From the NCBI RefSeq assembly GCF_029873635.1, contig NC_080420.1, positions 123,884,719-123,948,718 of the forward strand: a DNA stretch of 64,000 nucleotides, in the 5' to 3' direction. A program made the position numbers and the translations under genes. The stretch comes from Malania oleifera (lineage: Eukaryota; Streptophyta; Magnoliopsida; Santalales; Ximeniaceae). The first letter of the stretch is position 1. Each line of letters begins with the position of its first letter. The notes under the pieces are model-generated. The model was not told the origin of the DNA and did not search any database. It worked only from the letters and a program-made list of their open reading frames with translations. Below, one piece after another: positions 2,256-45,800 of this stretch.

Positions 2256-4489
2256 TGTTAGAATTGGTGTTTTCCCAAGAGGGGGGGGGGGGTGAATTGG
2301 AATTTAAAACTTTTTCTCCTAGTCTAATTTATCCTACAACAGTATATACACAACCTAGGGTCTGTCTATTCAATTTCCAAATGCGTAGATAAATATAATG
2401 TGAAATTTAAGTCATACGCATCATTCACCCATAACATACATGTACGGTAAATATAAAATGCGGAAATATAAATGAACACACGATATGTTATCGGGGTTCG
2501 GCCAACCGTGCCTACGTCCCCGCCTTAAGCTCGCAAGCAGGAGGATTCCACTAATAGCTCACTTAAGGGTGGAGCGGCACCGTTTACAACCAGGTCAAAT
2601 TAACACAGGGCTGACCTCAACCTTAACCAGGTCAATTAGCGGGGCTGACCTCAACCTACACGCCTTAACAGGACGACGCACCTAGCTTTCCTAACCGGGT
2701 CTAAGCCAATCCGGGACTATTCCAGGGCTAGTCTCCCTCTTCAGGCCCGTGCCTGAAAATACAACCAAAGTGTATTACAATGAAATGGTACAGTGATTGT
2801 GCTTTCAAGTAAAGCAGATAAGTACCCAAATTCGCGCAATAATATACACCACAAATATGATTCAATATGTAAGCTCAATGTGGTCTAGATGATTCAACTC
2901 TCAAAGGTATTTTCTATCGGTGTAAAGCGTACGTGAGAGTGTCAAACAAATAATCTTTGTATCACAAGATATTCAACAAATAGTTTCACACAAAGATGTC
3001 AAGTCTTATGTATTTCAATCATTAAGATATCTCAAGCATGTATGTATTAAACGATGTATATGCTTGGTTTGCAAAAGACGTGTAATCTTTGTATTCAGCA
3101 AATAATATATGAGTGAAAGAATATTGCAACAAAGATTTTATCACACTAATAAATATCTCATCAAATATTTTCAAGATAAAAACACAGTAGATATTTGAAA
3201 ATGTTTTTGCAACCAAAATGAAAATACCCTCTTCTTAAGATCTTGCAATGAAGATGCAAGCTTAGAAGATCTAACAAGGTTTTCTTAGGAAATGCTTATT
3301 AGCAAAAGCCTCCTAAGAATCTTAAGGTTTGGCTCTCAAGAAAATCACATCAAACAAGTAGCATAAGGAGAGCAAACCTATTAAACAAAACACTCAATCA
3401 ACTTACAAAATATGTAGGCAATGCTAGAAGGCAAGTATGAGTGGTTTGAGTAATAAAATGAGTAGTATAGGGTTTTTATTTTTCAGAGAATTCTTCCCTA
3501 ATCAAGGTGGCTAATCTCTTACTAATTTTCTCAAATGAACTTGTATATATAGGCAAAGGAGAAAACATGACCGTTGGGGACCTATTGGGTATTATTAGAA
3601 AAGTTTAATGACGTTTAAGACATTTTAACCCTGTTTAGAAAAATATTAACCACGGTAAAAATTGGACCAACCCGAGAGGTCCGGTCGACCGGAACTGGTT
3701 CGGTCGACCAGGACTCAAGTAGCTCGGTCGACCAGGGCAATTTTGAACTGAGTGGCTCGGTCGACCGGAGAGGGCGATTTGCCAAATTTCTGAGGTTCGG
3801 TCGACCGGAGCCTTTTTGAACTATAGAACTCGGTCGACCAGGCCATTGAGAATTCTCCCAAGACCCCTCGGTCGACCAGGTAGTTGGAGTACAAATCTGG
3901 TCGGTCGACCGGGAGGTCAAAGAGTTGACTCCCAGGAGGTTCGGTCGACCGAGGTCAAATGACCTATAAGGGCTCGGTCGACTGGGCCTGGGTCAAACAG
4001 TTGACCCGGACTGGTTTCAGTCGACCAGGCCAAGAATGAACTGTTTTGGCCGATTGACCGAAAGTGCACCAAGTGTGCATTTCGGTCTCTTCTTACAACA
4101 TATAAACCCTATTCAAGTGCCTATTACATACAAGTGTAAAGGTGAGTGTCCTAAGGTCACTTGGGGTCCAATTTGAAATCACCGAAAAAGTCCAGTGTTG
4201 GTCGACCGAAGGTTCACCCTAAGGTCTTTCTATGGTTCGGTTCAGCTTACAAATTAAATCATGCATGTGATGTGTGTGAGCTTATTACAAACCGAAAACC
4301 CTAATTACTATTACAGACAACTTCACTGAAAATTATTATAATTAAGAGTTATGAAATTGTCTTTAAGCCTTTCTTGCTTTGTACACATCTTGATCTTATC
4401 ATTGTTGATTCCTGCACAAAACTCAACCACTCATTAGATACAATGAGTATTTTTCATAATCAAAATCGGGCGTGATCAATAAGTCAACA
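2256..4489 (-). repeat. 3' LTR of element A
   Basis: 2,234 bp, TG...CA ends. On the minus strand: U3 with the palindrome array (about 4210 down to 3681), TATA-like box at 3544-3551 (TATATATA), then the long R/U5. It differs from the 5' LTR by scattered substitutions and one extra 20-bp palindrome unit near 3690-3710. A G-run of about 12 sits near 2281. Confidence 0.9.
3681..4060 (-). promoter_or_regulatory. Array of CGGTCGACCG-like palindromes in U3 of the 3' LTR
   Basis: About a dozen copies of an 8-10 bp palindrome (core GGTCGACC, a SalI site at its centre) spaced roughly 20-45 bp apart, most of them perfect, with another near 4200. On the minus strand the array lies upstream of the TATA box. 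Arrays of palindromes before the core promoter are known from Sirevirus LTRs, though the core sequence differs between lineages. A regulatory role is inferred. Confidence 0.7.
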
Positions 4490-4490
4490 A

Positions 4491-4640
4491 TCTCCCCCTT
4501 TTTGATGATGACAAATACGACAAGCGAAAATATAGGGTTAAGCCAGCCTAAGAAGGCTCCCCCTCACAATATGCATCTAATGTATTTAAATAAATAAAAC
4601 CATTAACCCATTATTTTTGCCCTTTCCATCTCCCCCTTTT
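4491..4640 (-). other. Multiple polypurine tracts next to the 3' LTR of element A
   Basis: On the minus strand AAAAAGGGGGAGA abuts the 3' LTR (4491-4503). Further G-rich purine tracts lie at about 4556-4567 and 4629-4640. The proximal tract should prime plus-strand synthesis. Several polypurine tracts in this place are a known Sirevirus trait. Confidence 0.7.
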
Positions 4641-5938
4641 GGCAACAGCAAAAGGGGCCATTTGAATTTAAAATCCTAGGCAATGGGTGATTAGTGTACT
4701 TATACATGATGAATTTTGGAAAAATTTCGGCAGAGTGCCGTTTGTAAATAGCACTTTCCAAAAGATATCCTATATAAGTATGACCTGTTTGAGTTTAAAT
4801 TTCCTAACAATTTATCCACAACTACTCAAACAGTTCAGTATGGTCCAATTACAGCAAGTGAAATATTAATTATGATCATGAATTGGACAAGTTGTGCAAT
4901 AAAAGTATAAAGTGTGCACATAATCAATATATCTGGTGATAACAAGGTTCAAATGACATAGCAAACCTGATTAAACTAGAAATATACACAAACCATTTAA
5001 CAATGAAAACATATCATAAGACCCGTGGAAGATTTGAGTTAAGGACACACGGCATATGATACCTAAAAGAGGGTTTGAGCATAAATATAGTCTAACTAGT
5101 TCACATGCATTTTCACATATTATCAATGAACCAGTTATATAATGCAACACCCTTAAGATATTTCATGACGTAAGATTTCAATACATGGAAGGCACAAGTC
5201 ATGAAGGCATGTAAGCAAATTAGCAAGACATACAATATATCCAAATTGAATTCAATTCTTGCTTTCATAGATAAATGTATATATATTCCCTTTAGTATGT
5301 GTAAAAGGTACTGAGAAGTTGCTTGATGAAAAGGAGAACTCCAATTTTAAGATAATCAAGCAATATTTTTCTGGGTTGTCAATTGTGCACATAGTAAATT
5401 ATAACCAGAAAAATCATAACCATAATGATCCAAAAATTTAAGATTCACATGCATGATCATATGGCAAGTCAAGTAACAGTGGCAACAGGAACATGTTTCA
5501 ATTTTATGATTAAAGCATTCCATTTAAGTACAGGCCACACTTGATTAAAAGGTAGATATAATCCATACATATTTTGTGAGCAAGACAAGATAGATATTTA
5601 TTTTCAGATTGCTCCCCCTAAATGTATGCAAATTATGAAACAATTACTTCACATGAATATATACATTTGGCACACACAAGTAATTGTTTTGATTATTTGG
5701 GCAAATGCCTACAGAAAATTCGGCAGCATGCTGGCTGTAAACAGGACATTTCCCAAATTTTACCTGCACATAAACGTTCTTAAACAGACAATATTATAGA
5801 AGTAGGGCACACGAGAACCTATCATCTACCAGCAGGCAATTCTCAACAACTGCATCCGCCATGCAGTAGGCATTCTACTCATGCATTTCAATATTACACA
5901 CAATTAACCACAAGAACATGTAAGTCAAGAGACTGCAA

Positions 5939-5976
<38 letters not shown>

Positions 5977-6060
5977 TAAATAACCAAGGTAGTATGTCAA
6001 TAACATCATGAGAGTACAGGATAAAACAAAAGAGCTGTTTTATTTAATACAGACCAGATG
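4641..6060 (-). other. Non-coding internal region of element A
   Basis: AT-rich, with no supportable ORF. It shares blocks with element B, for example the 'gccatgcag(t/g)aggcattcta' block near 5860 here and 16388 in B, so it is an old part of the family. It holds a (TA)n tract at 5943-5974. Confidence 0.6.
5943..5974. repeat. (TA)n microsatellite
   Basis: Uninterrupted alternating TA of about 32 bp within the non-coding internal region of element A. Confidence 0.95.
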
Positions 6061-6123
6061 ATATAAAATAACAATAAAAAGAATCAAGGCCCATGCTATC
6101 TGATCTGTGGACAACTCTGGAGT

Positions 6124-6387
6124 CTAGATCTCTCCTCCATCATCTTCTCCATCCTCTCCTCCATCATCACCATCAGCGACATCAAAATCAAAATTCATCG
6201 TCATCCTATCTCTCTCATCTTGCATCTCCTGAATGCGGTCACTCAGCTCACTGAAGCCAGCTGTCATGGTCCGCTCTAAATCTGTGAGGCGGCTATCAGT
6301 GGAGATGGAGTGCTGCTGGAACTCCTGCCGAAGTGCAGCAGATGACAATGCCAAGTCCTGCAAGTTTGACTGGACTGATCCTTGAAA
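6124..6387 (-). pseudogene. C-terminal extension of the Transposase_32-like ORF beyond an in-frame TAG
   Basis: In the same frame as 6388-7326 and separated only by one TAG codon. It encodes heptad-like residues (QDLALSSAALRQEF..., then a DLERTM/ELSDRIQEM stretch) suggesting a coiled coil, and ends in a strongly acidic Asp/Glu/Gly tail. Either the element carries a nonsense mutation, or the tail is reached by stop readthrough. The base context after TAG (TTTCAA) is not the usual tobamovirus-type readthrough context, so mutation is more likely. Confidence 0.55.
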
Positions 6388-7326
6388 CTATATGAACATG
6401 TCAGACAAGCCGGAGATAGCAGCCATAAGATCCACATTCGATGGCTGTGGAGGCTGTGGTGGCTCCTGTGGGGCCACAACATGTGCTGCACCTGCTTTAG
6501 AGGGCGCCCAAATGTTCCCTACGAGCTCATACCCCATCAGTCTAAGGGTCACTCTAGAGAAGGTGTCCGCCGGTCGTCTCCTCTTCAGTGAAGCCACATT
6601 CGTCCTTGTGACTCCAATACTTCTGAACAACTTGTTTAGGATTCCTCCATATGGCATGATCACTCGGTGGCCAATTGTCTTGGCCATCATCCATCGGATA
6701 ATCAAACTCGGCAAGTCCAACTTCTTCCGAGCAAAGAGGCACCACATGACGAAGCAATCTAAAAAGGAGACGTGCACTCTAGATCCCGCCTTGGGCAGGA
6801 TATTATACGTGATCAGATGATGCACGATCTTAGCCTTTAAGCTGAACTGTCTGTACTGGGGAGGATGGATCTGGCTAGCAGTGCCAGGGTCAAACATGGT
6901 CAGATTGGCGAATGTGGCTACGGTAAATCCCTGATCAAGGATCCAGGAGTTACCCACCTCGGGGCACTGAAAATCACCACGGCCAATGTCGAGGACTTCA
7001 GAGATATATTGTGCGTCAAACCGCACATCTGTCCTCAGAACACGAGAGAAATACCCGTTCTCATCATTGCCAAGGTTGGCATAGAACATCCTAACGAACG
7101 TCGGGTAATATCCCCCAGGCTGGTAGGAGATAAAGGATTTCCACCCTTGATACTCAAACATGTCTAAAATATTTTGAAAATACTGGCCCATAAATACCAG
7201 GTCGAGTATCTTACCTAGTATAGCCTCCTTGGGGCGAAACTCCCGTATGTACTGCATCTTGCATCTATCTGAGCGAAAATACTCATCCTCGGCATGTGCA
7301 AGATCGCGAGCTTCAATGTGAGCCAT
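6388..7326 (-). CDS. Putative plant transposon protein (Transposase_32-like) inside element A
   Basis: 312 codons. The stretch YYPTFVRMFYANL (about residues 72-84), followed by a region ending SEVLDIG, resembles the plant-specific 'putative plant transposon protein' family (Transposase_32), from my memory of that family. The biochemical role of the family is not established. The chosen ATG at 7324-7326 is the first in frame, has G at +4, and lies about 100 bp downstream of a TATA-like box (7426-7437). The reading frame continues beyond a single TAG (6388-6390) for 87 more codons, so the ancestral protein was probably about 400 residues. Element B has no counterpart, so this looks like a gained cassette in A or a loss in B. 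No catalytic residues can be assigned. Confidence 0.65.
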   Translation of the reverse strand: MAHIEARDLAHAEDEYFRSDRCKMQYIREFRPKEAILGKILDLVFMGQYFQNILDMFEYQGWKSFISYQPGGYYPTFVRMFYANLGNDENGYFSRVLRTDVRFDAQYISEVLDIGRGDFQCPEVGNSWILDQGFTVATFANLTMFDPGTASQIHPPQYRQFSLKAKIVHHLITYNILPKAGSRVHVSFLDCFVMWCLFARKKLDLPSLIIRWMMAKTIGHRVIMPYGGILNKLFRSIGVTRTNVASLKRRRPADTFSRVTLRLMGYELVGNIWAPSKAGAAHVVAPQEPPQPPQPSNVDLMAAISGLSDMFI

Positions 7327-7425
7327 GGGAATGATGATGTGAGGCTAGGGTATTGGGTTTGCTAGGAAATAGGGAAGGATTTCTCAAGATTTCTCGCGCA
7401 AATGAGTTGAAAATGAAGAGATTCA

Positions 7426-7740
7426 ACATATATATCACAGCTCGGTCAACCAGGAGTAGATACGGTCGACCGACGCTTGAAATTCCCTAGGTACCGACAC
7501 CTTTCGGTCGACCGAGGCGAAAATGAACTGGGATGGCCGGTCGATCGTAAGGGTGTATTGTGCCACGTTTCGGTCGACCAGGGGGAAACCGAGACTTCCG
7601 GTTGACCGAGATATTTTGTTCATGAAGGTTCGGTCGACCGTGAGGGGTCAAAGTCAACACACGCTGGTCGACCGAGGCGTTTTATAACTGAAGTGCTCGG
7701 TCGACCGAGCATAGTGGATTTTCCCGGTTTTCCCTGATTT
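7426..7740 (-). promoter_or_regulatory. LTR-U3-like internal promoter upstream of the Transposase_32-like ORF
   Basis: Nine CGGTCGACCG-like palindromes lie between about 7442 and 7706, followed on the minus strand by a TATA-like box (TGATATATATGT, 7426-7437) and then the ORF start at 7326. The order array, TATA, transcript is that of the flanking LTR U3 regions. The upstream edge also shares 'tcctaaggtc' with the LTR. I infer a promoter taken from, or evolved with, an LTR. Confidence 0.6.
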
Positions 7741-8276
7741 TTGATCCAAAGTTCTTCCTAAGGTCCATATTTGATGTGTAACAGTATAACCATGATTCTT
7801 AGGGATCCTTGGTGAAAGATATTGCTCAAATGAAGTGTGTACCGAGAATCGACTTTATCGACCTATTTTAGGAACCGGGCACTGCGGAGTATGACGCTTT
7901 TCTTAACTTGTGCTCAATGGTGATTGGATAATGTCCTACAAAGATGATGGCATAAAGGAGCAAGAATACGAACCAAGAAATAAATGAGAACTCACCGAGT
8001 ATGATCGTGGTTTGGTGATAATTCCCTATGGATGAGATATAAGACGAAGCCCTAAAATTTAACTTTGTACAATGGACAACTGCTGCTTAACTTTATGTTT
8101 TTCATGACGGCAGGGGTTAAGCAATTAGACGTAGATACCGGGCGTACATGCCATGTCCATTTTGAAGTGGATAAAGGTTCTTAGTACAACAAGATAGCTT
8201 AATGAGTATGCATACTAAATATTTTGTTTTAATCAACAATCACTTCCTGATACTATAATCGTCACAACTCCCAAAC
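7741..8276 (-). other. Spacer between gag and the second ORF of element A
   Basis: No ORF. The part from about 7960 to 8276 resembles element B at about 17190-17900 (shared blocks 'gatacgaacca', 'tatgatcgtggtttggt' / 'tgtgatcgtggtttggt'). The junction with the cassette found only in A therefore lies upstream of about 7960. Confidence 0.5.
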
Positions 8277-9554
8277 CTAGGAATAAAGAAAGGATAGCAA
8301 GAATGCATTTTCAGTTTGAGTTTGCTTTTCCTTAAGTCCTACGAGATTTGCTTCGCTGATTATCCATCTCATTTCCTTTTCTAGTCCTCTCTCGCTTCTT
8401 AGCAAGCAATTAAACCACATATGGCACACAAATTTGCAAAATAAGCAAGCATAGAATATATGTGAAGGATTGTGCTTATTTATTCCATTTCTCTTCAGTG
8501 AGGCCAGTCTGTTGATTCTATGTAAGCAGCCTGAACCCTTTTGGAAATGAGTTTTCTTTTTAGATCCGAAGGGTTTATTATGATTATTCGTATCATTTTT
8601 AATGTCCAGAGCAATTTTCGAATAATCATCTATTTCTTCATCCAAGCATGCAATATTCAATATCTTCTCAACCTTTTTCTTTTCAAGAATAGCATAAAGA
8701 TTTTTCAGCCCCTGTAATTGTTTTGCTATTCTTTTGTTCTCATTCTTTAGATGTATTTCATGCTTAGAGATTCTAACTAGAAACTTGTGCATTTTCAATA
8801 AAGTCTTTTCTAGTTCTTCATGTGATAACAAGCTTTTAATATTCAAATCAGCACATGATTCCCCAAAAGAATTATCACAACAGTTTTCATATGAATCATT
8901 GCATGCATGCTCAATAGGACTATCATGAAGTACAAGGGATGATTCATTCCATAATATACTGCAGCATTTAATATATGAATCATCACAAAAATCACTATCA
9001 AAGCTATTATAATATTCAACAGATGATCCAGCATTTGATATGTCACAAAAATGGACATATGATTCATCATAAGATTTATCATAGTAAACATCGCATGTAC
9101 CATTTACTGCATTCTCACAAAAACCACCAAATGGGCTAGAGTAAGAATCATATACCTCGCCATCGATGTCTAGCTCATGAATTACCTCCTCTTGATCATT
9201 AGAGCTTGGAGCATCTGGAGGAGTCACCATCTCTGATTCCTGGGATTTTCCATATTTCTTTTCCAGTTCATCCCAGATTTCCTGTGCAGTCTGACATGCC
9301 ACAAACTCAACAAAGATATCAGAATCTAACGCAAGATATAACATGTTCATGGCATCAGAATTAATCATATCAAAATCATTTTCATTTATTTGTGCACATC
9401 TTCCTTTGGCAGTCACAAGCCAGACCCTCCAGTCCATAGATTTCAAGAATATTGTCATTCTAACCTTCCACATGGTGTAGTCGACACCACAAAATACTGG
9501 AGGACTGGAAAGTGACTGTCTCTCAACGAATAGGGATACACCAATGTGAGCCAT
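8277..9554 (-). CDS. Copia-type gag polyprotein of element A
   Basis: 425 codons. The N-terminus (MAHIGVSLF...) is shared with element B, fixing the start. A DUF4219-like motif (VDYTMWKVRMTIFL, about residues 24-37) and a UBN2-like stretch ending EIWDELEKKYG are typical of plant copia Gag, but the middle of UBN2 seems shortened. Then comes an acidic Cys/Tyr/Ser-rich imperfect repeat region (about 135-230), a Lys/Glu-rich coiled coil (about 245-320), and a CCHC zinc knuckle CLFCKFVCHMWFNC (CX2CX4HX4C) near residue 390. Role: capsid and RNA binding for packaging. No pol frame follows it. The ORF is uninterrupted, unlike the copy in element B. Confidence 0.8.
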   Translation of the reverse strand: MAHIGVSLFVERQSLSSPPVFCGVDYTMWKVRMTIFLKSMDWRVWLVTAKGRCAQINENDFDMINSDAMNMLYLALDSDIFVEFVACQTAQEIWDELEKKYGKSQESEMVTPPDAPSSNDQEEVIHELDIDGEVYDSYSSPFGGFCENAVNGTCDVYYDKSYDESYVHFCDISNAGSSVEYYNSFDSDFCDDSYIKCCSILWNESSLVLHDSPIEHACNDSYENCCDNSFGESCADLNIKSLLSHEELEKTLLKMHKFLVRISKHEIHLKNENKRIAKQLQGLKNLYAILEKKKVEKILNIACLDEEIDDYSKIALDIKNDTNNHNKPFGSKKKTHFQKGSGCLHRINRLASLKRNGINKHNPSHIFYACLFCKFVCHMWFNCLLRSERGLEKEMRWIISEANLVGLKEKQTQTENAFLLSFLYS

Positions 9555-9595
9555 TTCGATCTTTTTACAAAAACATTTAAGTCAAGTGCAATGAG

Positions 9596-9607
9596 GCTCT
9601 GATACCA
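9596..9607 (-). other. Primer-binding site of element A
   Basis: The minus strand reads TGGTATCAGAGC, two bases from the 5' LTR. It is complementary to the initiator Met tRNA 3' end, as in most copia elements. Confidence 0.9.
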
Positions 9608-9609
9608 AT

Positions 9610-11826
9610 TGTTAGAATTGGTGTTTTCCCAAGAGGGGGGGGGGGGTGAATTGGAATTTAAAACTTTTTCTCCTAGGTTAATCTATCCTACAACAGTATA
9701 TACACAACCTAGGGTCTGTCTATTCAATTTCCAAATGCGTAGATAAATATAATGTGAAATTTAAGTCATACGCATCATTCACCCATAACATACATGTGCG
9801 GTAAATATAAAGTGCGGAAATATAAATGAACACACGATATGTTATCGGGGTTCGGCCAACCGTGCCTAAGTCCCCGCCTCAAGCTCGCAAGCAGGAGGAT
9901 TCCACTAATAGCTCACTTAAGGGTGGAGTAGCACCGTTTACAACCAGGTCAAATTAACACAGGGCTGACCTCAACCTTAACCAGGTCAATTAGCGGGGCT
10001 GACCTCAACCTACACGCCTTAACAGGACGACGCACCTAGCTTTCCTAACCGGGTCTAAGCCAATCCGGGACTATTCCAGGGTTAGTCTCCCTCTTCAGGC
10101 CCGTGCTTGGAAATACAACCAAAGTGTATTACAATGAAATGGTACAGTGATTGTGCTTTCAAGTAAAACAGATAAGTACCCAAATTCGCGCAATAATATA
10201 TACCACAAATATGATTCAATATGTAAGCTCAATGTGGTCTAGATGATTCAACTCTAAAAGGTATTTTCTATCGGTGTAAAGCGTACGTGAGAGTGTCAAA
10301 CAAACAATCTTTGTATCACAAGATATTCAACAAATAGTTTCACACAAAGATGTCAAGTCTTATGTATTTCAATCATTAAGATATCTCAAGCATGTATGTA
10401 TTAAACGATGTATATGCTTGGTTTGCAAAAGACGTGTAATCTTTGTATTCAGCAAATAATATATGAGTGAAAGAATATTGCAACAAAGATTTTATCACAC
10501 TAACAAATATCTCATCAAATATTTTCAAGATAAAAACACAGTAGATATTTGAAAATATTTTTGCAACCAAAATGAAAATACCCTCTTCTTAAGATCTTGC
10601 AATGAAGATGCAAGCTTAGAAGATCTAACAAGGTTTTCTTAGGAAATGCTTATTAGCAAAAGCCTCCTAAGAATCCTAAGGTTTGGCTCTCAAGAAAATC
10701 ACATCAAACAAGTAGCCTAAGGAGAGCAAACCTATTAAACAAAACACTCAATCAACTTACAAAATATGTAGGCAATGCTAGAAGGCAAGTATGAGTGGTT
10801 TGAGTAATAAAATGAGTAGTATAGGGTTTTTATTTTTCAAAGAATTCTTCCCTAATCAAGGTGGCTAATCTCTTACTAATTTTCTCAAATGAACTTGTAT
10901 ATATAAGCAAAGGAGAAAATATGACCGTTGGGGACCTATTGGGTATTATTAGAAAAGTTTAATGACGTTTAAGACATTTTAACCCTGTTTAGAAAAATAT
11001 TAACCACGGTAAAAATTGGACCAACCCGAGAGGTCCGGTCGACCAGGACTCAAGTAGCTCGGTCGACCAGGGCAATTTTGAACTGAGTGGCTCGGTCGAC
11101 CAGAGAGGGCAATTTGCCAAATTTCTGAGGTTCAGTCGACCGGAGCCTTTTTGAACTACAGGGCTCGGTCGACCAGGCCGTTGGGAATTCTCCCAAGACC
11201 CCTCAGTCGACTAGGTAGTTGGAGTACAAATCTGGTCGGTCGACCGGGAGGTCAAAGAGTTGACTCCCAGGAGGTTCGGTCGACCGAGGTCAAATGACCT
11301 ATAAGGGCTCGGTCGATCGGGCCTGGGTCAAACAGTTGACCCGGACCGGTTTCGGTCGACCAGGCCAAGAATGAACTGTTTTGGCCGGTCGATCGAAAGT
11401 GCACCAAGTGTGCATTTCAGTCCCTTCTTGCAACATATAAACCCTATTCAAGTGCCTATTACATACAAGTGTAAAGGTGAGTGTCCTAAGGTCACTTGGG
11501 GTCCAATTTGAAATCACCGAAAAAGTCTAGTGTTGGTCGACCAAAGGTTCACCCTAAGGTCTTTCTATGGTTCGGTTTGAGCTTACAAATTAAATCATGC
11601 ATGTGATGTGTGTGAGCTTATTACAAACCGAAAACCCTAATTACTATTACAGACAACTTCACTGAAAATTATTACAATTAAGAGTTATGAAATTGTCTTC
11701 AAGCCTTTCTTGCTTTGTGCACATCTTGATCTTATCATTGTTGATTCCTGCACAAAACTCAACCACTCATTAGATACAATGAGTATTTATCATAATCAAA
11801 ACCGGGCGTGACCAATAAGGTCAACA
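9610..11826 (-). repeat. 5' LTR of element A
   Basis: 2,217 bp, aligned throughout with 2256-4489, bounded by the PBS on one side and the GACGC duplication on the other. The close match between the LTRs suggests a fairly recent insertion compared with element B, whose LTRs differ more. Confidence 0.9.
10898..10907 (-). promoter_or_regulatory. TATA-like box of the 5' LTR of element A
   Basis: The minus strand reads TTATATATAC, downstream of a palindrome array at about 11034-11395. The position matches the TATA box of the other LTR (3544-3551). This is the likely start region for the genomic transcript. Confidence 0.6.
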
Positions 11827-11831
11827 GACGC

Positions 11832-12435: not shown

Positions 12436-12665
12436 GAAATGCATATTTATAATTTAAAGTATTTTTATATTAAAAATTAATGCTAAAATAACATCTTTAC
12501 TTTTCGTGTATATTTTTTGTGCACATGTTTAATTCATCTAATTTTACACTAGAAAGTATAGTTTTGCATTGGTCATTAGTACCAAATGGCATCATTTATA
12601 TAATTAAACTCACTAACTTCCAACTAACGACGTATGCTAACACACATCGCAACTTCTTTCATATC
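12436..12665. repeat. Backbone repeat (right of SINE, left of element B)
   Basis: Continues 11866-12000. Phrases such as 'tatattaaaaattaatg' and 'tgtgcac/atatgttt' recur near 23290, 23805, 34070 and 37010. It is interrupted at 12665 by element B and resumes at 21274. Confidence 0.6.
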
Positions 12666-14783
12666 TGTTAGCTTTGGTGTATTCCCAAAATAGGGGTGAA
12701 TTGAAATTTTAAAATTTATCTCCTAGGTTTAGCTAATCTAACAGCAGTATATTCGTAACCTAGGGTTTGTCTATACAGTTCCAAATGCACAGATAAATAA
12801 AACGTGCAGAAATAAAATCATGCTCGGCATTCACAATAAAACATACACGTGCAATAAATAAATTTCAAGAAAACAAAATGCATACATGATATGTTATTGG
12901 GGTTCAGCCAATACTGCCTACGTCCCCACTTCTAAATCGTAAGCCCAAGGATTCCACTAATGATAACTTAACGGGTGGAGCGGCACCATTTACAACCAGG
13001 TCAATTAATGGGGGGCTGACCTCAACCTACACTTTACCAGGATGGCGCACCTAGCTTTTCTACTAAAGTCTAAGCTAATCCGAGACTATTTAACTGGACT
13101 AGTCTCTCTTTTCAAACGCGTGCTTGGAATACAATAAATGTGAAATACAATTTTTTCATACAAAAAAATGCTTCTTACACAACCAGATTTGTACTACTAA
13201 GCTCAATATAATCAATCAATTAATGCACATCAATAATATAGGATTTATAAGCTCAATGATGTATGTGTGCAATCGACACTCAGTAGGATGTATAATTTCA
13301 AATATGCGCAGAGTGTTCTAACAAGGTAATCTTTGAAAGCAAAGTGTATCAAATCTCAATATCAGATTAGTGTTTCAAAAATGCTAGCAATAATATTCAA
13401 ACAAACTCAAAAATATTTTCTCAAATGTATTTACCACAAAAATTGTTTGAAATCAAGTTTTGTAAAATATTTTGCACACAAAAAGAATGCTTAAGGAATC
13501 TTGCAATATCAATGCTAAGATCCTCAAACTAATGAGTTATTCCCAACACAAGATTTATTAAGTTAAATATGTGGGAAAACTCTAGCCAAACTCTCAATAC
13601 AAAAATCAAACAATACAAATATCAATGAGAGTATAGGGCTATTTAGATGAAACACTAATAATCTAAACACTCTCTTTAAGCTTGGAGGACCAAAGAAAAC
13701 AAAGTAAAGGAGTATTTGGGATAGTATTTGGCAAAATAGGCTTTTTTAAATTTGATAGAATTTTTTGTTAATAAAGATCTTACTAATTTCTTACTAATTT
13801 TCACAAGTGAGCCCCTATATATAGAAGTTAGGCAAATTATGACCCTTGAGGACATGTAGGATATTATTAAAATTGTTTTAAAATATTTTAACAAAGTTAA
13901 CTCTGTTTAAAAACTTTTAGTCTCGGTAAAAAATTGCCCAACTTGAGAGCACCGGATGACCGAACTTGAGGTTTGGCTAACCAAGTGACAAAGTTTGGTC
14001 GACCGTGCAAAAAATGAACTGAGAGTTCGTTCTACAGGATAAGTGTCTTAAAGGCGATTTTCCCAAAACCACGCGGTTCGGTCGATCAAGTGATTTTGAG
14101 CTAGGTAGTTCAGCCGATCGGGCAATTGGAATCTCCCACGTGGGGGTTCGATCGACAAGAGCGTTGCCCGTATAAATTTGGTTGATCGACCGAGGGGTCA
14201 AAACGTTGACCCGATGGGAGTACGATCGACCAAGTTGTATGAACTTGGCAAGGTATGGTCAACCGTGCTATGGTCAAAATGTTGACCTCTAATCGGTTCG
14301 GTCGATCGAATGCTTTTATGCATTCCGATTCGGTCAACAGAATATGCATTTTTAATACATTTTGATTCTAATCCCCTTATACATTAACCCTATTCAAATA
14401 AGCACATATGTTTATGCATGCATGTGTGTCCTAAGGTCATTCTAGGTCCTTTTAAGGACACTGAAAAAATTCGGCGTTGGTCGACTGTCTAAGGTCATTT
14501 GATTTTCAAGTGATGTGTAGGGACCTAGAGTCCTTCTAAGGCCTTTGATCTTGTAGTTCCTACATGCATGATATGCATTAAATATTATAGACATTTCCTA
14601 TATTACTATTACAGACCGAAATGAATAATAACGAATTACAACATAAATGATCTTTAGGGTCTTCATGCTCTACTTCATGTGTCATCAAAGTATTTGCGAA
14701 TATAAATCTACACACAAACTTGATAGCTATCAATTACCAGTATTTGTCATTATCAAAACCGGGTGTGACCCATAGGGTCAACA
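12666..14783 (-). repeat. 3' LTR of element B
   Basis: About 2.1 kb, plus-strand ends TGTTAGC...GTCAACA. It holds a degenerate palindrome array (about 13960-14340) and a TATA-like box at 13816-13823. More substitutions separate it from its partner than separate the LTRs of element A. Confidence 0.85.
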
Positions 14784-14784
14784 A

Positions 14785-14834
14785 TCTCCTCCATTTTTTA
14801 CGATAACAGGTACTTGCCTACTTCTCCCCCTTTT
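14785..14834 (-). other. Polypurine tracts of element B
   Basis: The minus strand shows a purine tract next to the LTR (14785-14799) and a second G-rich tract at 14823-14834 followed by the 'ggcaacagcaaaa' block. The same block follows the second tract in element A (from 4641). Confidence 0.65.
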
Positions 14835-17800
14835 GGCAACAGCAAAAAGGGCCAAGATAAACATTTAAGTATATGTAGACAAATAAGAGGAAAATATCAT
14901 TTATATACAAGATAAGGTTTGCGAAAAATTTTAAGAAAAATTGGCAGCATGTCGTTTGAAAATAGGTGCATTTCCCGAAAACATGTCTGTATAAAAGTGA
15001 CCTGATTGAGTAATATATTGACAATAAATCCACAACTACATACTCAAATAGTCCAGTATTCTCAAAACATAAAATAGAAGTATAACTTTCAGTCATTCAA
15101 GAGATAGAATAGTCATACCATGCAAAAATAAATGACAAAGATAATCTCAGCAATTTAGCACACAAACAATACAATTTGTCATTTAAATGATTTAAATGAC
15201 TCATTTAAATGACATGAAAAAAAAAAATTAGACCATAAATATGCACAAATCATTTCAATTGAAACATATTATAAGACTTGTAAAAGATTTGAGTTTAAAG
15301 CTCACGACATATGATAGCAAATAGTTGGTTTGAGCATAGACATAGTCAAACAAGTTCGCATGCATTTACATGTGAAGTTATCGAACCAGTTGTGCATTTT
15401 AAAAAATATATATCCTCTTTTGATATTTGCAAAAAGTACTGGGGATTGCTTGCCAAAAAGATTTTAATTTTAAGTAAGCAAGCAACATTTTTCTGGTTTA
15501 GCATTTTAAGCATATTCATAATATAACCAGAAAACCACAACCATAATGATCCTAAAAATTTAACAATCACATGCAAGATTATATGACAAATCAAGTGACT
15601 GTGGCAACAACAACATATTTCAAATTTATGATTTGCTATAAGAATAACACATTTAAGCTCATGTCGCACTATATTTAAAATTTACCTAAGCTAAAAGGTG
15701 CTGAGCATAACAGGGTAGATATTTAAATTTAGATGCTCCCCTTATCAATTTGAACCATAGCTTAGATGAAATAAATTACTTATACTTTGTAAGGGATTGA
15801 TTTCATTGAATTTTCCAAAGTATAAGTGAGCACACAATTCATTCTTCAATAACTATACTAGATATTTATTAACAATATTTATCTCCAATCATTATAGTCA
15901 TCCCTATAGACAACAAGTGCATCGGAAATAGATATTAAGGCATTCTATGCAATTCATGACCCAAGAACATTCCATATCAAATAATTGAACTTTTAAGTGT
16001 AGGATACAATGTTCAAAGATATCAAAAGAGCCTCAATATTCAATAAGTGTATTGATGCATATGAGTTCTTTGAGCCTTTTCTATAGGGAGGGAGCTGAGC
16101 TCCTCTAAATGTCTGATGATTATACCAAGATGAAGTTTGATTATTTAATTGATTTTCATTCATTCGTTCAAAAATATTTTAACTTTAATTTTATTATAAT
16201 CATATTTAGACAAGATTTTACTTGGGAAAATTCTAACAAAAATTCGGCAGCATGTCGTCTGTAAATCGGACATTTTCCCATAAAACCTATACCTAATAAA
16301 TTCAAGCAAGCAATATATAATTCAATTTAAGCATGCAAGAACCTATAACCCACTACTAGTATGCAATTCACATCAACTGCATCCGCCATGCAGGAGGCAT
16401 TCTAGACAAAGCATGCATTCCAGTAGTATCAACTCAAGATATTCAATATAGCTCAATAGTGGTTCGTGCTAGAAAAATACATAAACTATCCATCAGAGAA
16501 ATTTTAACCATTAATTGAATCATGGATAGTACTGCAATGCTATACACATATAGGCATAAAGACATAAATGATATAAGAATATGAGAGCATTCAAATTATA
16601 TATATGAAGAACAAAAGCTCCCCTTGAGTTATGCACTCAACTCATTTAATGTCTTTTTCATTTTCAAGTTCAAAAACCAAGAGTTATAATATTTTCAATG
16701 ATTTTAGCTTGGCTTTTTTATTATAGGCTTAACGGACCAAAAAGTCACAATGAATATCTTTTCTGTGTGTTAAGCCTATCTTGCCTCTTTTTTTTTATGA
16801 ATTTCAATATGCAAGAGGCCCAAGTTCAGAATGGCTTTAAATTTAAACTGCTCGTGTGCAAGTTTCATTTGGACTATGAATTTTCTTTAAAATTGAAACC
16901 TATTACAATTAATTTAGCCATTCAACTCATTTCTAAGGATATGAAGCTCTAAAGGATATGATTTAACATTTTGAGAGCTTATGAGATGAAGTAAAGAATA
17001 AATACTCTTAACAGTTAAATTTCTATTAAGTTCAGAAGAGTATTTAAAAGAGGTAGGACATTGTTCAAAATGTATTCGTGCTAACTAATATGCCCTAATA
17101 GTTAGACCAAGAGCAACTAGGAGTATATTATTATTTATGGAATAGTGCTCTTTGGAGAATGGAAAGTATCCTTTAGATATGATCAATTTAAAGCAAGGAT
17201 ACGAACCAAAGAATGGGAGAAACCCTACTGAATGTGATCGTGGTTTGGTAAGGATTTCCTATGAAGGAGACGAGTAAACCAAAATTAGAGAATTTTGATA
17301 TTTTAAATTCAAAGGGAATATTTTTATTTAATCAATAAAACCTGAATCCCTTAGTGGTTGCCTCTAATCTTGATTATAGCAAGATGTCTTATGAAAAGCA
17401 CACTTAATATATATATATATATATATATTAATCATTTATGATCAATAGTCCTTTAAACCTAGAGTGGTGACTTGATTTTGATTTAACCTTTTCATATTCA
17501 AAAATGAGTTTAGGATTAAATGATATATAGTATGAGATGGATCCCTAGACCACAAACTTAAGTGATGGACAATGCATGCTTAACTTAGGATTTTCATATT
17601 TGCATGTGAATTAAGCAATTAGAATTATTTACCTGGCAAAGATGCCATATCCATTTTGACGTGGATTTTCATTTAAGTATGATATAACCAATGTTTTCAT
17701 ATTTTATCCAATCATTATGATATATGTATGTGTGAAGTTTAAATTGGATATTTTATCTGAGATTGCATAATGGTTATATTTTCTAATGTTCTTAGCATAG

Positions 17801-18007
17801 AGTGAAAGTGTATAATGAATACACATACTAAGATTTAACATTTTAAGCATAGCCCACTTCCTAGCCTTTTGAACATCACTACCCCTTAAACCTAGGAACT
17901 TAAGGAAGAATTTAAAATGAATATCTAATTCTTATTTGATCCCACTCTCCCTCAAGTCCTACGGGGTTTGCCTTCATAATTACCCATATCATTTCTTTGT
18001 TTAGGCT
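14835..18007 (-). other. Non-coding internal region of element B
   Basis: AT-rich, with no ORF I can support. It shares segments with A on both sides of A's cassette (about 16250-16600 with A 5700-6020, and about 17190-17900 with A 7960-8276). The stretch 16620-17150 is not shared with A. Short (TA)n at about 17407-17428. Confidence 0.55.
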
Positions 18008-19118
18008 TCAGGCACTTCTAAATAGACAATTAAATTGATTGTGCCCTTTTCTTTTACAATGTAAGCAAGTTTTGTTAAAACATGAAAGATTATGCTTACA
18101 ACTCTTATGATTACTTGTTGAGGCATGATATTGGGAATTATATGATAATCCTAAATCCTTTTTGAAAAGATTTTTCTTTTTAATCTCTAAGGATTTATTA
18201 TGATTATTCTTTTTATTTATAACTTTGAGTGTAGTTCTAGAAAAATCACCAATTTCTTCTTCTAAGCAGATAATTTTTAAGATCTTCTTAATCTTTCTCT
18301 TTTCTAAGATGGCAAAATAATCTTTTATTTCTTCTAATTGCTTTGCCATGCTTTTATTTTCCTTTTTCAAAAAGGATTTCTGCTTAGATAACTTCGCTAG
18401 AAATTTATTCATTTTCAATAAAATTTTGCCTAACTTTTCACATGATGGCATGCTTTCATTTATCAATTCAGCATATGATTCATCATAAGATATATCATAG
18501 TTATTATATGAATCATTGCATGCAACAACAATAGTATTTTCACAAGGAATACCAGATGATTCATCATACAATATGTTGCGATATTTTTCACAAGAATCAT
18601 CACGTGCATCAATAACAAGATTATCATAATATTCAATAGATGATTCAGCACATGTAGCAACACAACATTCAACACATGAATCCTCAAACGAGCTAGAGTG
18701 AGAATCATATACCTCATGTTTTGTTGATGCACTATCCCTATCACTTACCACTCCCTGATCATCTGAACATGACCTCTCTAGAATGATGGTTTCCTTTTCC
18801 TGGGTCTCTCACATATCTCTTTTCCAAGTCAACCTAGATCTCCCACGCATTTGTACATGTCATAATCTTAAGCAAAATATTAGAGTCTAAAGCACAATAT
18901 AGCATGTCCTTGGCATGTGAATTTGCATGCAACAAATTAATATCATTTTCTACTGGCATACAAGTTCCTTTATCGATCACCTGCTAGTCCCTATAATTCC
19001 TAGATTTTATAAAAATTCTCATTCTAATTTTCCAGGCAGTGTAATCAACACCACAAAATGATGGAGGACTGGAAGGTGATCGTCCCTCTCCGAATGGGGA
19101 TACACCAATTTGAGCCAT
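18008..19118 (-). pseudogene. Broken copia-type gag of element B
   Basis: Starts MAQIGVS at 19118, matching the gag start of element A, with the DUF4219-like motif VDYTAWKIRM. Two Trp codons have become TAG in the first third, more stops follow and the frame shifts before 18751. The rest (247 codons from 18751) is open and keeps the Cys/Asp/Tyr-rich repeats, the Lys/Glu-rich coiled coil, and a zinc knuckle CLHCKRKGHNQFNC of better consensus than the one in A. It cannot make full Gag as it stands. Confidence 0.8.
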
Positions 19119-19158
19119 TGCGATATTTTACAAGAGCTGTTAAGCCTAGTGTAATGAG

Positions 19159-19170
19159 GCTCTGATACCA
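19159..19170 (-). other. Primer-binding site of element B
   Basis: The minus strand reads TGGTATCAGAGC, initiator Met type, adjacent to the 5' LTR. Confidence 0.85.
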
Positions 19171-19171
19171 A

Positions 19172-21273
19172 TTAGCTTTGGTGTATTCCCAAAAGGGGGG
19201 GGGGGAGGGTGAATTGGAATTTTTATATTTATCTCCTAGGTTTAACTAATCTAACAACAGTATATTCACAACCTAGGGTCTGTCTATACAGTTTCGAATG
19301 CGCAAATAAATAAAACGTGCGGAAATTAAATCATGCGCAGCATTCACAATATAACATACACGTGCGATAAATAAATTACGAAAAAATAAAATGCACATAC
19401 AATATGTTATCGGGGTTCAGCCAATTCTGTCAACTTCCTCACCTCTAGCTTGCAAGCCCGAGGATTCCACTAATACTCACTTAGCAGGTGGAGTGGCACC
19501 GTTTACAACTAGGTCAATTAATGGGACTGACCTCAACCTACACCTTACCAGTATGGTGCACCTAACTTTCCTAACTGAGTTTAAGCCAATTCGGGACTAT
19601 TCAACAGGGCTAGTCTCTCTCTTCAGACCCGTGCCTAAAATACAACAAATGTGAAATACAATTTTTGCGTAACAAGCAGATTTGTACCACTAAACTCAGT
19701 ATAATCAATCAATTAACGCACATCAATAATATAGGATTTATAAGCTCAATGATGTATATGTGCAATCAACACTCAGTAGGATGTATAGTCTCAAATATGC
19801 GTAGAGTGTTCCAATAAGCTAATCTTTGAAAGCAAAGTGTATCAAATCTCAATATCAGATTAGTCTTTCAAAGATGCTAATGATAATATTCAAACAAACT
19901 CAAAAATATTTTCTCAAATGTATTTACCACAAGAGTTGTTTGAAATCAAGTTTTGTAAAATATTTTGCACACAAAAAAAATGCTTAAGGAATCTTGCAAT
20001 ATCAATGCTAAGATCCTCAAACTAATGAGTTTTTCCCAACACAAGATTTATTAAGCTAAATCTATGGGAAAACTCTAACCAAACTCTCAATACAAAAATC
20101 AAACAATACAAATATCAATGAGAGTATAGGGCTATTTAAAATAAAGCACTAATAATCTAAACACTCTCTCTAAGCTTGGATGATCAAAGAAAACAAAGTA
20201 AAGGAGTATTTGGGATAGTGTTTGGCAAAATAGATTTTTAAATTTGAGAGGATTTTTTGTTAATGATCTTACTAATCTCTTACTAATTTTCACATATGAG
20301 CCTATATATATAGAAGTTAGGCAAATTATGACCATTTAGGACATGTAGGGTATTATTAGGATTGTTTTAAAACATTTTAGCAAAGTTAATCTAGTTTAAA
20401 AATTTTTAACCTCGGTAAAAAATTGTCCAACCCGAGAGTATCGGTTGACCGAACTTGAGGTTCGGTCGATCAAGTGACAAAGTTCAGTCGACTATGCAAA
20501 AAATAAACTAAGAGTTCGGTCAACCGGACTAAGTGTCTTAAAGGCAATTTCCCCAAAATCACGTGGTTTGGTCGACCAAGTGATTTTGAGCTAAGTAGTT
20601 TGGTCGACTGGGCAGTTGGAATCTCCCACATGGGGGTTCGGTCGACCAGAGCATTGCCTGTATAAATCTAGTCGGTCGACCGAAGGATCAAAACGTTGAC
20701 CCGATGGGAGTACAATCAACCAAATTGTATGAACTTGGCAAGGTACGGTCAACCGTGCTATAGTCAAAATGTTGACCTCTGACTAGTTTGGTCAACCGAA
20801 TGCTTTTATGCATTCCGGTTTGATCGACCGAACATGCATTTTTAATGCATTTCGATTCAAATCCCCTTATATATTAACCGTATTCATATAAGCACATATG
20901 TTTATGCATGCATATGGGTCCTAAGGTCATTTTAAATCTTTTTTAGGACACCGAAAAAATCCGGCGTCAGTCGACCGTCTAAGGTCATTTGATTTTCAAG
21001 TGATGTGTAGGGACCTAAAATCGTTCTAAGGCCTTTGAGTTTGTAGTTCCTACATGCATGATATGCATTAAATATTACAGACCTTTCCTATATTACAATT
21101 ACAGACCCAAATGAATAATAACGAATTACAACATAAATGATCTTTAGGGTCTTTATACTCTACTTCATGTGCCATCAAAATATTTGCAAATATAAACCTG
21201 CACACAAACTTGATAGTCATCAATTACCAGTATTTGTCATTATTAAAATCGGGTGTGACCGATAAAATCAATA
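19172..21273 (-). repeat. 5' LTR of element B
   Basis: Aligned with 12666-14783. The junction to the PBS reads 'ccaattagcttt' where 'ccaattgttagcttt' is expected, a three-base loss at the LTR edge. It ends CAATA instead of CAACA at 21273. Confidence 0.85.
20301..20312 (-). promoter_or_regulatory. TATA-like box of the 5' LTR of element B
   Basis: A run of TATATATATA-type sequence downstream (minus strand) of a decayed palindrome array at about 20433-20840, the same layout as in element A. Many array units have lost the perfect GGTCGACC core. Confidence 0.55.
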
Positions 21274-42887: not shown

Positions 42888-45800
42888 TCATTCCCCTGAC
42901 TTGTTGTGGAAGCTCATCCTGACAACTATATGTCGAGATATACCAGATTCACCCTACTTGGCAAAGAAATCCGCACTTTGATTTGCTTCTCTATAAGCAT
43001 GTTCCACTTTGTAATGTATGTCTCTCAATGCTAACACAAGCTTTTCCCACAATTCCCATAAGTTCCAAGCCAAACACTTCCTAGAATTAATCCACCTAAC
43101 CAACAAAGCAGAGTCACAGGCAATCTACACTTGATCAAATCTGAGATCTTTACACAGATTAATCCCTATAATAAGTGCTTTCAATTCAACCATATTATTG
43201 GTTCCATAACCCGATAATGAGGAAAAAGTTGCTTTAAATAATTCTCTTTCATCTCTTAGCACGCCTCCACCACCACAATTACCTAGGTTATCTCTACAGC
43301 TTCCATCCACATTCAACCTAACCCAATCTATCCCAGGTTTACACCATCTGACTACACGAGAAAGATGAACCCTCACATTTTTTACTTGAATATCCAAAAC
43401 ACAAAGGACTGCAATATCCGTGCAAGAAGCAGGTGCACATTTAGTTAACTTGTCCGAAATTGATCTCAGCCAATATTTAATATCAAGCCACACAGTTCTC
43501 ACGGAATCATGAATTGATTCCATCCTAACTCTACATCGACGAGTCCAAAGTCTCCAAATAATGAGACTAGGTATGAGACCTACGAAAATGGCTAACCGTG
43601 AGGCACGTCCTGCACAACCAAACCAGAAATTAACTTTGACTTTCCATGTATTCGTTGTCATACAACTAACACCTTTTCATACCTCCTAAGCAAAAGATCT
43701 CATGCAAAACACATGGTCTAGAGATTCAATTTGGCATTTGAACAACAATCACACCGAAAGACCATCTGAACACCTACTTCTTGTATACGAGTATCAACAC
43801 GAAGACAAGCGAACCAAGACTTCAATGTACAAATTGACACCCGTTTTGGCAACACGGGATGCCAAATCCATTTTGAAACAAAGAATTCCTCTTTACGCTC
43901 CCTTATAATTTCCCAAGCACTTGTCGTGGTAAATTTCCAATCTGTTGAAGGTTCCCAAATTACTGTATCTGGACCCTCCTTACAAGAAATAGCAGAGTTC
44001 ATTACTTCCTCAGTCTATTCTTCACCCAACAGATCCACTAATAAATCAACATTCCACTCATCTCTATCCCAACAATCTCGTGTTCGTAGCTTATGGTTTC
44101 TAATTTCCTGAAACTTAGCACAAAGGGGACCAAAGGATAACCATCGATCAAACCAGAAAGAGGCCGACCCTTTTTAATTTGAACACGAACATGCTCTAAT
44201 ACTTCAGGTATCACACGAGCAATCGATCTCCAAAATCCGGTTCCTTTATCTGGCTTTATTTCTCTCAAGCGGTGTCTATTATTCAAATACTTGGCTTTAA
44301 AGAATTGAGTCCACAGATTATCCATAGTTAATAATCTCCACACAAACTTTATGTGCAATGATTTTTTTACTTCCTCAAAATCCCTAATACCCAAACCACC
44401 CTCACAAACAGACTTACATTTATTAGGCCAAGAACACCATTTCCTTTTTCTTTTACTATTTACTCCACTCCAAAAAAAAAAATTCGATAACATAGAATTT
44501 AACTTTGTGAAAACAATATTAGGAATGTCAATTACTGCCAATTGATGAACCGCCATTGATGATAATACATGCTTAATTAAAACTAAGCGGCCCCCTTGAG
44601 ATAAAAGCTTAAATTTCTAACCTGCTATCTTTTTCCTCAATTTAGAACCTAAAGGCTCTAAACTACGGCCGTAAAACGACCCAATACCAAAGGAACACCC
44701 AAGTATGTAGTAGGGAACCCTCCTTCCGCAAAGCCAGTCATCCTTAACAAGGATCACTTCCGAGCATAAGCAATTCTATTTGAAAAAAAAATACTTGACT
44801 TGTCTTTATTTATCATTTGGTCAAACCAATCCTCATATTTCTTAAGAGTCTTGATAAGCATTCGAATGGAACTTCTCTTACCATTGGAAAAAATAAGAAT
44901 GTCATCTGCATAGAGAATATGAGATACCAAAGGCGCCCCATGAGGATGATAGCAAGCCTCTATCTTATTCTCTATAAAATTTTTCTTTAGAAGCCGAGAA
45001 AGAACTTCCTGTAAAATAATAAACAGATAAGGAGATAGAGGGTCTCCTTGGTGAAGCCCTCGAGAAGGTTTAAAGAAACCTTTATAAGTGTCATTCATCA
45101 CAATGGAGAACCAAGGAGAGGAAACACATTCCGCCACTAAACCACAGAATCTTTAGGAGAATCCAAAGCTTTTCAAAACTAAGTTTAAAAAATCTCAATC
45201 GACCCTATCATAAGCCTTAGCCATGTCTAATTTGATCATTACATTTTCACCATTAGACTTCTTATGCAGAGAATAAACAATTTCTTGTGCTAATGTAATA
45301 TTTTCAAATATACTTCTACTGGAAATGAAAGTTCCCTGCTCCGGAGAATTCAATGCAAACAATAAATCTATCATCCTTGCAACAATATTTTTTAAAAAAA
45401 TTTTGTAAATAACACTACAAAGACTAATAGGCCTGAACTTATCAAAACTCCAGGGATTCTGAACTTTTGGGATTAGAACAATGTAAGATGCAGAATAAAA
45501 TCTAGGAAGATGAGACCTAGCAAAAAAATCTCTAACTGTATCGATCACCTCTTCTTTTACAATATCCCAACAATAATGGAAAAAAGTTGAACCAAAACCA
45601 TCCAGACCTAGGCTACTATTTCTCGGGATAGAAAGAATAGCATCCCTTACCTCCACCTCGGACGGAGCACGACAAAGAGCAATATTCTTCTCTTCAGAAA
45701 CCATAGGAGATATAATATCATCAAGGTAAGCTATTCGACTGGATCCTGCACCTGTTAAGAAAGTTTGAAAATACCTTACTGCACCTTCATGAACAGCCTC

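Follow-up and report, generated by a model that had tools for sequence, protein, structure and literature searches.

How does a long terminal repeat (LTR) retrotransposon without a pol gene come to carry, and to keep, a gene of the Transposase_32 family? The question is raised by element A, an LTR retrotransposon on the minus strand at 2256-11826 of a 64,000-nucleotide stretch of the Malania oleifera genome (NC_080420.1, positions 123,884,719 to 123,948,718). This whole stretch is referred to here as the window, and its numbering is used throughout. A first-pass annotation, made from the letters alone, had described a gag-only element that multiplies together with a Transposase_32-like open reading frame (ORF), and proposed that its propagation by a non-autonomous element could explain the spread of the family. 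The follow-up analysis points to another origin. Element A very probably descends from an env-containing Sirevirus (Ty1/copia) through loss of pol and truncation of gag, its second ORF being the ancestral 3′ gene with its own leader rather than a captured one. This reading is drawn from the Sirevirus-type marks in the non-coding DNA of the element and from the copia reverse transcriptase (RT) and RNaseH sequences that precede the gene at most of its best-matching genomic loci.

Anatomy of a pol-less element

Element A is flanked by the target site duplication (TSD) GCGTC, which lies at 2251-2255 on its 3′ side and at 11827-11831 on its 5′ side (minus-strand reading). The 5′ LTR (9610-11826, 2217 bp) and the 3′ LTR (2256-4489, 2234 bp, starting with TGTTGAC and ending with TAACA) have TG...CA ends; aligned over 2215 positions, they show 52 differences, of which 47 are transitions and 5 are transversions (identity 0.9765; Kimura two-parameter distance 0.024). 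Directly inside the 5′ LTR, at 9596-9609, stands ATTGGTATCAGAGC, which we take to be a primer binding site (PBS) of the initiator-Met type. The internal region then reads, all on the minus strand, as a truncated gag ORF of 425 aa (8277-9554), a post-gag spacer at the expected position of pol (7730-8276), the leader of the second ORF (7345-7729), the Transposase_32 ORF at the env position (6388-7326, 312 aa), an in-frame extension of 87 aa with an acidic end beyond a TAG (6124-6387), and a 3′ untranslated or linker region (4490-5949). The LTRs, TSD, PBS and polypurine tracts of the first-pass annotation are thus present, with the tRNA type of the PBS presumed. Its single ORF at 6124-7326 is interrupted in the window copy, which reads as 312 aa, a TAG and 87 aa.

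No similarity to pol was detected in the spacer. Nine protein queries taken from the pol of a relative (loci L008 and L065, described below) were compared with element A, the whole window and loci L011-L062 and L064, and none matched at E 0.001, in line with the earlier remark that no pol is visible.

The gag is recognizably of copia type, and incomplete. It matches Retrotran_gag_2 at E 4.6e-6 and 26.6 bits, just under the cut-off of 27, and covers profile positions 29-78 of 172. Its N-terminal capsid part is followed by an acidic stretch, a coiled-coil-like part and one CCHC knuckle (the last three by eye); the second half of the capsid is absent and one knuckle is apparently missing, again by eye. 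Comparison with the gag of loci L066/L065 gives 41% over 118 residues at the N-terminus and 31% over 93 residues in the coiled-coil-like part, with a weak match (E 0.04) at the CCHC knuckle. "Gag-only" was therefore right in that a gag is there, and too generous in that half of the capsid and, by eye, one knuckle are gone.

The same window holds a second LTR element, element B (12650-19970, about 12.6-19.9 kb), with long repeats that are 87% alike. Its gag-type ORF (18008-18751) has the same capsid-truncated form and shares 53% and 42% identity with the gag of element A in two pieces. No pol and no Transposase_32 gene were found in element B, and a single GGTCGACC box lies at 13997. Because the gag of element B has the same short form, gag may have been truncated before element A arose.

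The second ORF matches Pfam Transposase_32 (PF20167) at E 3.2e-21, with 76.4 bits against a cut-off of 45, and its residues 60-239 align to profile positions 3-176 of 177; the family membership suspected from the letters is thereby confirmed. For the 312-aa ORF, AlphaFold2 produced a model of low quality (mean predicted local distance difference test score 59, nine sequences in the alignment), and Foldseek retrieved nothing from PDB or BFVD at E 0.001, so that no function is assigned to the protein on the basis of its fold. Protein database searches returned one homologue each.

Sirevirus marks in the non-coding DNA

The comparisons with published elements made here and below draw on the available portions of the papers cited. 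As marks peculiar to them, Sireviruses carry repeated AGGGGGAG tracts, located mostly after the env gene, the last of them exactly 10 bp before the 3′ LTR (PMC2829016). They also carry palindromic boxes, almost always built around CGG-CCG, of which the first lie 200-400 bp inside the LTR and others in front of env; env-less Sireviruses have no palindromic boxes in the linker (PMC2829016). Element A resembles the env-containing Sireviruses (PMC2829016, PMC3599292) in all of these respects: AGGGGGAG tracts after the 3′ gene, a terminal tract 10 bp from the LTR, and CGG-CCG boxes. Its four AGGGGGAG octamers start at 5619, 4637, 4564 and 4499 and all lie behind the ORF, three of them within 0.2 kb of the 3′ LTR and one 1.1 kb away. 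The terminal octamer, which constitutes the polypurine tract (PPT; 4499-4492), starts exactly 10 bp before the LTR and is followed by AT at 4491-4490 and by the LTR from 4489, as in the published Sirevirus PPT.

The palindromic GGTCGACC boxes are equally restricted in their placement. Eight are found in the 5′ LTR (offsets 284-782), ten in the 3′ LTR (offsets 282-799) and six in the leader of the second ORF, where they form repeated motifs of Sirevirus type; there are none elsewhere in the element. The element A box CGGTCGACCG is the same as the box listed for a Vitis Sirevirus (PMC2829016). This arrangement recurs in other genomic copies of the element: each of the 19 copies, out of 30 read, in which the ORF start could be located by a fixed motif has 6-16 box-like matches within 400 bp upstream of the ORF and none in a downstream control stretch. 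A further GGTCGACC cluster lies outside element A at 20487-20970 of the window (20570, 20640, 20674) and is perhaps a fragment of another box-bearing LTR.

A C-rich integrase signal and a conserved junction between the 5′ LTR and the internal region are also named among Sirevirus features (PMC2829016). A C run near the end of the 5′ LTR and such a junction were seen by eye in element A, in a comparison with the feature names only. Finally, the last 27-102 nt before the 3′ LTR match the corresponding sequence of five pol-bearing loci (L006-L010) at 75-96%. Element A has no RT of its own by which it could be placed, and its non-coding marks identify it as a putative Sirevirus derivative.

A 3′ gene of copia elements

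A profile search of the genome for Transposase_32 yielded 8173 first-look candidates, of which 150 were scored and the ten best read in detail. At seven of these ten (L002, L005-L010) a copia RT/RNaseH lies just upstream on the same strand, and at nine, L001 being the exception, at least one AGGGGGAG follows downstream of the gene in its sense. The spacing is nearly fixed. Among the 124 RNaseH matches listed, 23 are followed downstream by one of the 150 scored Transposase_32 matches; the distance is 510-541 bp in 22 cases and 2798 bp in the remaining one. Together with the upstream RT/RNaseH, this spacing makes the Transposase_32 gene look like regular 3′ equipment of Sirevirus-type copia elements in the Malania oleifera genome.

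A fuller series of domains is found along one strand of one chromosome. Locus L008 carries RVT_2 and Transposase_32 according to Pfam, and loci L066, L065 and L008, read in order and leaving aside 1.9 kb between the last two, give gag, Pol_BBD, gag_pre-integrs, rve, RVT_2 and Transposase_32. Retrotran_gag_2 appears in two pieces in L066/L065, the second under the cut-off, and the frames there are broken. The end of L065 resembles the LTR terminus of element A, read in reverse direction, so that a further element has probably inserted itself at that place. The pol-bearing loci L002 and L005-L010 appear to belong to Sirevirus-like families other than that of element A, since the stretches examined contain no box of the GGTCGACC type.

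These pol-linked copies led to the rejection of capture by a gag-only element in favor of retention, and give no support to the proposal that a non-autonomous element acquired the gene and so spread the family. An origin of the cassette in Gypsy elements of the Athila type, considered because of a report on sunflower (PMC11728184), is not needed, as the linked RT is of copia type. The one close match in the protein database, a public Malania model annotated as a germin-like protein, also carries a Transposase_32 piece, probably through contamination of the model by a retroelement.

Copies in the genome

A DNA search of the genome with the ORF gave 1432 first-look candidates, and the 40 that were scored share 91-100% identity with it along 1186 or more of the 1215 bases. 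The 30 best loci, including the window copy (L011), were read. Gag and post-gag sequence lies upstream in 29 of the 30, a leader of at least 100 nt in all 30, and the 3′ region downstream in 29. The two exceptions are distinct loci: at L018 an LTR directly precedes the leader of the second ORF in place of gag, so that this locus is perhaps a recombinant, and at L016 the 3′ region lies further off and is visible in a longer stretch (L062). On the scale of the genome, an element-A-type ORF is found 701-994 bp downstream of 76 of the 99 gag matches listed, compared with a mean of 2 and a maximum of 5 after shuffling of positions. The 99 gag, 127 element-A-type ORF and 124 RNaseH matches are those listed, and counts based on them are lower bounds ("at least").

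A chance cassette, which by the reasoning of the first-pass annotation would occur only once, is rejected by these copy numbers and by the constancy of the gag and post-gag neighbors. The joint multiplication of a pol-less LTR element and its Transposase_32 gene, on the other hand, was correctly foreseen. Two copies on the small contigs C457 and C456 (L045/L064, which are the same copy, and L046) match the second ORF over no more than roughly its first 60 bp, after which degenerate TTTAGGG telomere-like repeats take over.

Selection on the two genes

The two genes were compared over the same 28 copies, each set against the window copy; L018 was excluded beforehand because it has no gag, and a filter for missing positions removed 0 of the 28. 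The ratio of nonsynonymous to synonymous substitution rates (dN/dS) is 0.167 for the ORF (dS 0.201; codon bootstrap 0.11-0.24; jackknife s.e. 0.008) and 0.463 for the C-terminal 188 codons of gag (dS 0.175; codon bootstrap 0.35-0.68; jackknife s.e. 0.02). Because mutation of the methylation type distorts dN/dS, neutral values were obtained by simulating 120 sets of four sequences under the context-dependent mutation spectrum of the flanking non-coding DNA. The simulated ratio is 0.61 for the ORF (s.d. 0.07, minimum 0.46) and 0.53 for the gag part (s.d. 0.09, minimum 0.35). Stop codons are rarer than expected in both: 0.34 per 100 codons are observed in the ORF against 1.19 expected, and 0.08 against 1.03 in the gag part. 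The ORF is clearly under purifying selection among pol-less copies. The amino acids of gag are not distinguishable from neutral, and the gag frame is protected from stops too, as the deficit of stops indicates.

Over all pairs of the 30 copies the dN/dS of the ORF is 0.172, with 0.93 and 1.53 in the other two forward frames and a mean dS of 0.22; the ratio is 0.24 in the closest quarter of pairs and 0.14 in the most distant quarter. Full-length gag gave 0.465 (11 copies) and 0.484 (9 copies) with copies chosen by gag similarity, and the matched set of 28 was relied on instead. A stop expectation computed for the full-length gag applies to the divergence of the flanks rather than to that of the nine copies and was set aside. 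Among pol-bearing elements, three pairs (formed by L007, L008 and L010) gave 0.18-0.28 for the gene at dS 0.19-0.32, and 0.26-0.34 for RT/RNaseH; pairs with L006 or L009 were left out because the dS of the gene is at least 1.3 or saturated (dN/dS 0.05-0.07 where obtained). The gene is about as constrained in the pol-less copies as in the few pol-bearing copies compared.

A proposed life cycle and its rivals

Transcription from the LTR of element A would produce an RNA whose PBS, PPT and LTR ends could be used by the pol of related Sireviruses, a possibility suggested by the PPT and LTR-end sequence shared with L006-L010. This RNA would be packaged, reverse-transcribed and integrated in trans by the pol, and probably by the full capsid, of pol-bearing Sireviruses. 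Such mobilization in trans has been seen for a copia-type TR-GAG in Arabidopsis ddm1 (PMC8704663) and is proposed for barley Giselle and Inga (PMC5738225). The Transposase_32 protein would chiefly serve, in cis, the very element that codes for it, perhaps by acting on the RNA of that element, on chromatin or in transport. A cis-preferring role is suggested by the fact that the second gene is kept and not borrowed. The resulting picture, of a Sirevirus lineage that shed pol and half of the capsid, lives on borrowed machinery and cannot shed its cis-acting env-position gene, is offered tentatively, at somewhat less than even odds.

Several observations weigh against the retention of an ancestral, functional gene. 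The frame is open to at least 390 aa in only 6 of the 30 copies, the window copy being among the 24 in which it is not, and most copies read are decayed. In a simple scan, no strong membrane span was found in the 312-aa ORF (best 19-residue mean hydropathy 1.22), so that "envelope" is a purely positional name for it. No RNaseH was found in the 1.5 kb examined at three of the ten best Transposase_32 loci (L001, L003, L004), and no pol-like ORF was recognized by eye in the 10 kb around L001 (stretch L063). None of the 124 RNaseH matches listed, which are those closest to L008, belongs to a pol-bearing element with an element-A-type ORF, and 50 of the 127 element-A-type ORF matches stand without a gag among the gag matches listed. 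At the PPT/LTR junction an inverted repeat matches at 11 of 12 positions, but since 23 of 300 random places reach at least 11, it adds little. The selection signal itself could be imported through exchange of the ORF between pol-less copies and unseen pol-bearing relatives.

Some of these facts fit other explanations. The ORF might be conserved merely as a legacy of pol-bearing ancestors, or through copying by template switching, and be functionless in the pol-less copies. The 24 broken copies and the higher dN/dS of the closest pairs, which is expected if recent branches decay, speak for this; however, the pol-less structure of 29 of 30 loci, combined with the mean dS, means that much of the divergence probably followed the loss of pol, and the gag part avoids stops far below the neutral expectation. 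We regard such a legacy as unlikely, though as the explanation most deserving of attention after retention with a function. A foreign Transposase_32 gene that entered a gag-only element, by chance insertion or by capture, and was amplified later could account for the higher G+C content of 6001-8000 (0.469, against 0.343 and 0.368 in the adjacent 2-kb stretches) and for the lack of the gene in the related element B of the same window. This explanation is largely refuted by the many copia elements that have the same gene directly behind RT/RNaseH; a leader rich in boxes is what has been published for Sireviruses, the high G+C is explicable by an old coding gene under selection, and capture is accordingly very improbable.

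Two further explanations invoke a partnership or an interfering gag. Pol-less elements could provide the Transposase_32 protein, together with truncated gag, and pol-bearing elements the pol, in mutual dependence. A strongly constrained ORF in elements without pol, and the rarity of stops in the gag part, would follow from this, but the few pol-bearing copies compared keep a constrained Transposase_32 gene of their own and have no evident need of a supplier, and such a two-part system seems improbable to us. Interference by truncated forms of gag is known from yeast Ty1. The gag of element A could likewise be an interfering or copy-number-controlling protein directed against full-length Sireviruses, with the ORF as a bystander: the second half of its capsid is gone, and yet its last 188 codons are nearly free of stops. 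Its amino acids, unlike those of the ORF, change at a near-neutral rate, which leaves this equally doubtful. Retention of the ancestral Sirevirus 3′ gene therefore stays the preferred account of the locus.

Comparison with known elements

Element A differs from the tabulated Sireviruses in its lack of pol, its truncated gag and its LTRs of 2.2 kb, against 0.54-1.68 kb, and the available portions of the Sirevirus descriptions (PMC2829016, PMC3599292) do not call the env-position gene Transposase_32. Like the TR-GAG elements (PMC8704663), it combines LTRs and a gag-type ORF with the absence of pol. An Arabidopsis TR-GAG related to ATCOPIA63 transposed in ddm1 (PMC8704663), but TR-GAGs have a single GAG ORF, whereas element A has an incomplete gag and carries a constrained second gene besides, which places it outside that class. 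The barley Copia element RLC_Giselle likewise lacks the genes for reverse transcriptase and integrase, its gag being potentially intact, and is proposed to depend on RLC_Inga (PMC5738225); Inga is listed with an env gene (PMC2829016). For Giselle only gag is mentioned, and no env-position gene is noted in the portion available (PMC5738225), unlike in element A.

Accessory genes of a similar kind have been described in Gypsy elements. The additional 3′ ORF of sunflower Athila has partial similarity to Transposase_32 and, like the gene of element A, lies in sense orientation at the 3′ end of its LTR retrotransposon, but Athila is a Ty3/gypsy element with gag and pol ORFs (PMC11728184). The TRP28 genes of Retand are conserved accessory genes of unknown function in plant LTR elements, some of them non-autonomous; unlike the gene of element A, they are antisense ORFs of Pfam family PF04195 in a Gypsy lineage (PMC11963269). 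SIRE is not mentioned in the available part of a paper on additional ORFs (PMC7264820). No account of a pol-less Sirevirus with a maintained env-position gene was found in the open-licence literature, judged mostly by title and the opening of the abstract.

Other retroelement sequences in the window

Elsewhere on the minus strand of the window, LINE-like ORFs occupy 43125-46670, with an endonuclease-type start and a reverse-transcriptase-like end (by eye from the translation). At 53019-53804, also on the minus strand, a Gypsy-type gag fragment is present (Retrotrans_gag, E 1.4e-8).

Implications

The present results give Transposase_32 a home, as a copia 3′ gene at seven of its ten best loci, and help in judging gene models in which it appears. 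In a family without pol and with a truncated capsid, the constraint on this one retained gene separates its role from reverse transcription and integration, and suggests that the gene is needed by its own element. If the role in cis is true, pol-less elements would represent a natural genetic test of the function of the plant "env-like" gene.

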